Below, one piece after another: positions 384 to 1,697 of a DNA stretch of 12,905 nt. Positions within the stretch are counted from its first letter, which is position 1, and each line of letters starts with the position of its first letter. The notes below the pieces were generated by a model that made no database searches, was not told the origin of the DNA, and saw nothing but the letters and a program-made list of their open reading frames with translations. Source of the stretch: Aquificota bacterium (GTDB taxonomy: Bacteria; Aquificota; Aquificia; Aquificales; Hydrogenothermaceae); NCBI GenBank assembly GCA_013153635.1, contig JAADDZ010000027.1, positions 1 through 12,905 of the forward strand, read 5' to 3'. The position numbers and the translations under genes were made by a program.

Positions 384-755
384 GTGAAGATTTTGGAAAT
401 TGTATTAACAGAATTTGGAAACATAGATACGGTATTAAAAGATACAATAAAAGCAATAGGTAAACTTATACCTATACAAAAAAGGAATATAAACTTACTT
501 GCAAAAAAAATAGAAGATATATATGAAAAAAATGAAAACATACCAGAATTCAAAGATGCCTTTGAAAACTTATTAATAGAACTTATGGAAACAGAAGACA
601 TAAAAACAGTTTACACATTATTTTTACTCTTGCCAATAAAAGAAAGAATAAAAAGAGAAATAATACAAGACCTAAAAGAAGCAGAAAAAACTCTTAAAAT
701 AAAGAAATCCCTACAAAATCATAAAGAATTAGAAGAAATTCTTGAAAATATATGA
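384..755 (+). CDS. unrecognised helical protein, candidate antitoxin of a RelE-type pair
   Basis: A 123-residue, highly charged protein predicted to be almost entirely alpha-helical. I do not recognise its family: there is no visible helix-turn-helix, AbrB, Phd/YefM or RelB signature. Its partner role is inferred from context, because its last codons overlap by 4 bp (ATGA, 752-755) the start of a RelE/ParE-type toxin, the usual coupling of type II toxin-antitoxin operons with the antitoxin first. The start is GTG at 384, three codons after an in-frame TAA (375-377), with only a weak AAG just upstream as ribosome site; a TTG at 393 is an alternative. It is larger than most antitoxins (70-100 residues). 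It could instead be a truncated or unrelated protein. The nucleotide composition is more A-rich than the housekeeping genes downstream. Confidence 0.6.
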   Translation: MKILEIVLTEFGNIDTVLKDTIKAIGKLIPIQKRNINLLAKKIEDIYEKNENIPEFKDAFENLLIELMETEDIKTVYTLFLLLPIKERIKREIIQDLKEAEKTLKIKKSLQNHKELEEILENI

Positions 756-1132
756 ATATCAAAGAAATTATCGTCTGTAAATGTTTCAAGAAAGATATAA
801 AAGAATTACAGAAAAAATGCAGAAATTCAGCTTTGGAAAAGGAAATTATCAATCATTTACTTGACGTTATCAGAAATGGGGATTACAAACACAGCATACC
901 AAAAATTTATGAAAGCAAAATTGGAGTATTATTTAAAAGTAGATTTAAAGGTTGTAGTGGAAAAGGAAAAAGAGGTGGATTTAGGATAATTTGGGGACTA
1001 AAACAGGAGAAATTTATATTAGTGAAGATGTATTCAAAATCTCAAGTTGAGAGTATACCAATAGAAGAACTTGTAAATGAACTTATAAATTGTTTAAAAA
1101 ACTCTGATTTTGAAAAATACCCTAAAAAGTAG
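752..1132 (+). CDS. RelE/ParE-superfamily toxin
   Basis: A 126-residue small basic protein resembling RelE/HigB-type toxins, which typically cleave mRNA at the ribosome or, in the ParE branch, poison gyrase. The recognisable block is in the C-terminal half: a Lys/Arg-rich strand F-K-S-R-F-K-G around 61-67, then G-K-G-K-R-G-G-F-R-I-I-W at 70-81, and the terminal strand L-V-K-M-Y-S-K-S at 90-97, which matches the family pattern of 'GGFRvIY...iYsKsek'. Basic residues K71, K73, R74, R78 and Tyr94 are candidates for RNA binding or catalysis. The ATG overlaps the stop of the upstream gene, so translation is probably coupled. The stop TAG (1130-1132) directly abuts the stop of a convergent frame on the other strand. 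Family assignment is fairly secure; whether it acts as ribonuclease or gyrase poison is not visible. Confidence 0.75.
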   Translation: MNIKEIIVCKCFKKDIKELQKKCRNSALEKEIINHLLDVIRNGDYKHSIPKIYESKIGVLFKSRFKGCSGKGKRGGFRIIWGLKQEKFILVKMYSKSQVESIPIEELVNELINCLKNSDFEKYPKK

Positions 1133-1615: not shown

Positions 1616-1629
1616 ATGATAAACATCAT
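1616..1629. promoter_or_regulatory. FNR/CRP-family-type operator upstream of globin
   Basis: ATGAT-AAAC-ATCAT is a perfect 5-4-5 dyad that contains the TGAT-N4-ATCA core of the FNR/DNR consensus TTGAT-N4-ATCAA. Its centre (1622.5) lies about 42 bases upstream of the start point expected from the TATAAT at 1653-1658, which is the classical position for class II activation by FNR-type regulators. The regulator itself is not in the window. Confidence 0.55.
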
Positions 1630-1636
1630 TTTTATA

Positions 1637-1650
1637 TTCGAATATTCGAA
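1637..1650. promoter_or_regulatory. 14-bp perfect palindrome in globin promoter spacer
   Basis: TTCGAATATTCGAA is a perfect palindrome located between the FNR-type dyad and the -10 box, centred near -21. A protein bound there would block RNA polymerase, so a repressor operator is the natural inference. It does not match an operator consensus I can name with confidence. Confidence 0.45.
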
Positions 1651-1652
1651 AT

Positions 1653-1658
1653 TATAAT
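1653..1658 (+). promoter_or_regulatory. -10 box of globin promoter
   Basis: A perfect TATAAT lies 40 bp before the globin start codon. At the normal 17-bp distance upstream the -35 region is only TTTTAT, a poor match. That is expected for a promoter that depends on an activator bound at the -42 dyad. Confidence 0.6.
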
Positions 1659-1697
1659 AAAAGACAAATAATTCTTAAATATAAAAAGGAGATATGT

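Follow-up and report, generated by a model that had tools for sequence, protein, structure and literature searches.

The promoter of a single-domain globin gene in a member of the Hydrogenothermaceae carries two putative regulatory sites that are conserved among its relatives: a CRP/FNR-type dyad at a class II activator position and a predicted operator that lies over the predicted transcription start. We consider it reasonably likely that this promoter combines class II activation by a CRP-family protein with repression by an NsrR-like Rrf2 protein, and that the encoded thermoglobin removes NO. The CRP-family protein would bind positions 1616-1629 and, from this class II position beside a weak -35 hexamer, activate transcription of the globin gene, while the Rrf2 repressor would occupy positions 1658-1679 and block the start; upon NO meeting the iron-sulphur cluster of the Rrf2 protein, the repressor would leave the DNA, and the active activator together with the NO-lifted repression would allow the globin to be made and NO to be removed. 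The initial annotation had placed globin control in the dyad alone, and while the class II placement of this site stands, the second operator had been overlooked.

Thermoglobin is the oxygen-avid globin of a hyperthermophile. The globin studied here was found in a window of 12,905 nucleotides (the whole stretch of DNA that was analysed), which is contig C18 of a 1.69-Mb, 96% complete genome (G000); its globin places this genome closest to Hydrogenothermus sp. and other Hydrogenothermaceae metagenome-assembled genomes. The globin matches Pfam Globin (54 bits) and the globin domain of flavohaemoglobin (161 bits over residues 1-139), with the thermoglobin of Aquifex aeolicus as the best solved match (7dih, E = 5e-53); the relationship spans the full length of the protein and there is no reductase domain, as in single-domain globins of the thermoglobin/flavohaemoglobin type. 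Thermoglobin is mentioned in a review (PMC3820574), and no regulatory or promoter study of it was found in the literature, which is weak evidence given that subscription papers lay largely outside the search. Elsewhere in the window (384-1132), two overlapping small ORFs of 123 and 126 aa have no Pfam match; the second looks, on inspection by eye, like a RelE/HigB-type toxin, and the pair may constitute a toxin-antitoxin module. Another globin domain is fused to the C-terminus of a molybdopterin oxidoreductase of ~826 aa that is widespread in Hydrogenothermaceae (L024 1-1914, G000:C17:16674-17066 region; L063 2302-3402, G015; L009-L026), and its nearest profiles are those of assimilatory nitrate reductase and formate dehydrogenase.

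Table 1. Features of the globin locus, in window coordinates
Feature	Position	Strand	Basis or remark
CRP/FNR-type dyad ATGAT-AAAC-ATCAT (1616-1620, 1621-1624, 1625-1629)	1616..1629	.	conserved core TGAN6TCAT (1617-1629), centre 1622.5
Weak -35-like hexamer TTTATA, 16 bases before -10	1631..1636	+	consensus match only
Palindromic ATTCGAAT-type element (TATTCGAATATT; TTCGAATATTCGAA at 1637-1650)	1633..1650	.	common to rrf2 promoters of the genus as TATWCGAATATW
-10 hexamer TATAAT	1653..1658	+	predicted start near 1665; spacing conserved
Predicted Rrf2-type operator TAAAAGA-CAAATAAT-TCTTAAA	1658..1679	.	diverged from family consensus TTTAAGA-N8-TCTTAAA; profile score
Ribosome-binding site AAGGAG	1686..1691	+	direct reading
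Single-domain globin, thermoglobin type, 140 aa	1698..2120	+	Pfam, profile and structure matches

The TGAT-N4-ATCA core from which the dyad had originally been recognized is indeed present, but only once in the window, against 0.24 sites expected, and at least one such site occurs in 42 of 200 window shuffles. By itself, the window dyad is thus weak evidence, and it is its conservation that raises it above chance. The four-base core moreover proved to be the wrong pattern. When the globin promoters of four Hydrogenothermaceae genomes (G000, G013, G019 and G023; dyads TGATAAACATCA, TGACAATTCTCA and, twice, TGAGTTTTCTCA) were aligned, T1617, G1618 and A1619 together with T1626, C1627, A1628 and T1629 were invariant and the inner bases varied, the conserved core being TGAN6TCA(T); the anticipated conservation in globin promoters of relatives therefore holds for TGA and TCAT in all four. 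In a fifth close relative (G003), hemerythrin, rrf2 and globin genes form an operon in that order, and the core (TGATAATAATCA) is present in the operon promoter as well. Promoters of rrf2 in G000, G001 and G002 have the same TGAN6TCAT core with different inner bases (TGACAAATATCA, TGATTAATGTCA), and so does the hemerythrin-rrf2 operon promoter of G013 (TGATATTTGTCA). A search for the dyad at other NO or respiration genes had been suggested; within the family, the core recurs at promoters of rrf2 and of hemerythrin-rrf2 operons, but genome-wide TGATN4ATCA is not enriched in G000 (40 sites versus 56 for the reversed control). Likewise, TGAN6TCA with TANNNT at class II distance occurs at background level across the genome (11 and 9 versus 11 and 12), so the case rests on the conserved promoters. 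A comparably placed dyad was present in 4 of 105 background promoters taken from 400 kb of genome stretches, and with a leave-one-out profile of dyad and -10 hexamer the window promoter ranked first of 141, the other eight dyad promoters taking ranks 1-6. Outside NO genes, the top scores in G000 belonged to iscU-like (L221, around 16022) and moeA-like (L227, around 18608) promoters; these genes, identified by eye, may be further targets of the CRP-family protein and would point to a larger regulon. Globin relatives outside Aquificota have no common dyad; FNR-type boxes (TTGAYN4RTCAA) lie 5′ of globin genes in Sulfurovum, Sulfuricurvum and another Campylobacterota-type genome (L142, L144, L150, L158). 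The globin genes of more distant relatives within the order, belonging to other families (L006, L007, L008), have neither a TTTAAGA operator nor an evident TGAN6TCAT-type dyad, and show a different dyad of upstream TTAACA/TGTTAACA-like repeats.

Given the predicted start at 1665, the two-fold TGAN6TCA-type site is centred at -42.5, one base off the class II position, in agreement with the placement first proposed relative to the TATAAT hexamer. The -35 region is as poor as had been described, with four of six consensus matches and 16-base spacing; promoter-like sites occur in the window about as often as in shuffles. Exactly 29 bases past the dyad centre, an NANNNT hexamer begins in eight of the nine dyad promoters, which places the dyad at -41.5 if this hexamer is the -10, while in the window promoter TATAAT begins 30 bases past the centre. 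Other offsets in the range 6-54 gave a mean of 1.6 of nine promoters, the next best reaching six. Because the nine promoters represent only about six independent lineages, we estimate the strength of this spacing conservation, allowing for their non-independence, at roughly one in a thousand. In the operator-bearing CopD promoters of genus g7, by eye, the dyad is absent and the -35 is better (TTGATT, 18 bases, TATATT), as expected if the dyad substitutes for a weak -35.

A CRP/FNR-family regulator, whose existence the dyad had implied, is encoded in G000, where a single HTH_Crp_2 protein was detected on contig C15 (241 aa, with a cNMP-binding fold and a Crp helix-turn-helix). The two other species of the genus, each 99% complete, also have a single relative of this protein, and it is present in every related genome examined, whether or not a globin is encoded. 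Its recognition helix, TTVETAIR, is identical in 14 orthologues from Hydrogenothermaceae. According to the residue rule of Rodionov and colleagues, E181 corresponds to the A in the TGA half-site, and a non-R residue at position 180 to a base other than G ahead of TGA (PMC1274295); V180/E181 of the protein is compatible with nTGAN6TCAn under this rule, and the sites agree. By elimination within a 96%-complete genome, the dyad is the predicted site of this protein, making TGAN6TCAT the predicted binding motif of a regulator found throughout the related genomes. The protein has one cysteine, inside the sensor domain, and lacks the N-terminal 4Fe-4S cluster cysteines of FNR; all 17 orthologues have a single cysteine. 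FNR-type oxygen sensing, and with it the oxygen-responsive control initially suggested, is therefore not supported, this being the only family member detected. An identification as FNR was rejected on the lack of the four cluster cysteines and a score far below the Fnr equivalog cut-off, and one as cAMP-CRP on a score of 77.9 bits against a cut-off of 266 and the lack of G before TGA in the sites.

The second operator emerged from comparison of rrf2 and globin promoters, which yielded the palindrome TTTAAGA-N8-TCTTAAA. Across 61 genomes, its exact form occurs in 34 copies, all in Hydrogenothermaceae, versus one copy of the reversed pattern. A few of the exact copies are inside genes; most lie just upstream of CopD-like, hemerythrin, DUF2249, prismane/CO-dehydrogenase-type and globin genes, at 13-22 bases from the start codon, and the operator also heads the rrf2-holding operons of G003, G013 and G015. 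Occurrence both at NO-defence-type genes and at operons that hold rrf2 is a pattern typical of NO-defence repressors that control their own synthesis, and rrf2 is probably autoregulated. Genera g7 and g8 have the operator but not the dyad. No exact copy was found in the genus of the window, and two-mismatch matches in G000 remain at background level (43 sites versus 65 in the control); it is position and profile score that single out the globin operator. It lies over the predicted start, 18 bases before the ATG, and a profile trained on other genera only gave it 15.1 bits and the first rank, the best of 178 background promoters reaching 4.1. In G000, the gene divergent from rrf2 scored 12.8 bits by the operator profile and a hemerythrin gene has a two-mismatch operator at its start codon, while the rrf2 promoter proper of the genus scores low. 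An 82-aa zinc-ribbon/helix-turn-helix protein (L235 1550-1798, G000:C1) is encoded divergently to rrf2 in G000, G001 and G002, and its gene has a near-perfect TTTAAGA operator at its start. Apart from an unrelated iron-regulation paper, we found no literature linking Rrf2 with TTTAAGA, again weak evidence, as subscription papers were largely outside the search.

The Rrf2 protein of G000 (143 aa, contig C1) matches Pfam Rrf2 and scores 93 bits against the Rrf2 superfamily profile (cut-off 73.3), and the Rrf2 proteins compared, that of G000 included, have three C-terminal cysteines in a C-x6-C-x5-C arrangement. In Hydrogenothermaceae, rrf2, hemerythrin and globin genes are linked in operons. Assignment to NsrR itself was rejected on two grounds: a score of 43.7 bits against the equivalog cut-off of 182, and an operator that does not match the NsrR consensus gATGyAT-N5-ATrCATc (PMC1274295). 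The Rrf2-family regulator is more likely to be the NO sensor than the CRP-family protein, and the second operator, tied to it through operon structure, probably belongs to this NsrR-like repressor.

An unlikely alternative, that of the initial annotation, is that an activator similar to FNR or NssR/DNR acts alone through the dyad, responding directly to oxygen or NO, without any repressor. The conserved class II dyad would fit such an activator, as would the precedent of NssR, a single-cysteine CRP-family protein that activates a related globin in Campylobacter (PMC4601167), the CRP-family protein here likewise having one cysteine. However, the lack of FNR cluster cysteines, the high-scoring operator over the start with its ties to rrf2 operons, and the relatives that have the operator but not the dyad all argue against it.

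A different possibility concerns the third element, between the dyad and the -10 hexamer. The globin promoter shares TATWCGAATATW with the rrf2 promoters of the genus (G000, G001 and G002; L061, L060, L062), and in G001 and G002 the element also lies 5′ of a gene for a TauE-like permease. It matches G000 at only four places, several matches lying inside genes, on which ground it was rejected as a regulon motif; it may be a further operator. If the Rrf2 protein of the genus had switched to this element, the TTTAAGA-like site would be a decaying relic, a scenario favoured by the rarity of the element and its sharing between globin and rrf2 promoters, by the lack of exact TTTAAGA-N8-TCTTAAA in the genus and by an Rrf2 helix slightly unlike that of other genera. 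We nevertheless hold this to be quite improbable: the TTTAAGA-type sites at the globin gene and at the rrf2-divergent gene still rank first against background, and TATWCGAATATW stands at no fixed distance from the -10, in addition to its intragenic matches. Finally, although window-shuffle and genome counts at background would be compatible with a chance palindrome in AT-rich DNA and a globin expressed constitutively from the TATAAT promoter, the core is conserved and its spacing fixed across about six independent lineages of promoters, which makes this very improbable.

The reading with both an activator and a repressor resembles two known systems, and is, by its sequence features, a member of neither, the defining operators of both being unmatched. 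In line with the logic originally likened to NssR control of Cgb, a globin promoter here has a CRP-family dyad at the class II position, with a different site. As in the NssR-Cgb/Ctb system of Campylobacter jejuni, a single-cysteine CRP-family protein is paired with the promoter of a single-domain globin (PMC4601167). Yet NssR recognizes TTAACN4GTTAA with A180/Q181 (PMC1274295), whereas the present system has TGAN6TCAT and V180/E181, its regulator belongs to the conserved core of the genomes irrespective of the globin, and a second operator overlaps the start. With NsrR-hmp, the system shares an Rrf2-family protein with three C-terminal cysteines and a palindrome over the starts of globin, hemerythrin and DUF2249-type genes, but it differs in operator and in its low NsrR score. 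The CRP-family protein is also akin to the HcpR1/DNR/FNR group in its TGA half-site and its non-R/E pair at 180/181, and its nearest solved relatives include DNR (E = 1.5e-17); it departs from this group in the variable base after TGA (T, G or C), in lacking Fe-S cysteines and in scores that fall well short of the equivalog cut-offs for Fnr and Crp.

Extending these observations to the family, we see an even chance that Hydrogenothermaceae run an undescribed NO regulon, in which an Rrf2 repressor recognizes a distinct operator, TTTAAGA-N8-TCTTAAA, over the starts of globin, hemerythrin, DUF2249, CopD-like and rrf2-operon genes and acts in several genera together with a class II site for a conserved CRP-family core regulator that lacks an FNR cluster; in this deep-branching lineage of thermophiles, two regulators would then jointly gate NO defence. 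The operator supplies a predicted regulon for an Aquificota Rrf2 protein, and the conserved two-site promoter, shared with hemerythrin and DUF2249 genes, points to a testable role in NO defence during nitrogen-oxide metabolism.
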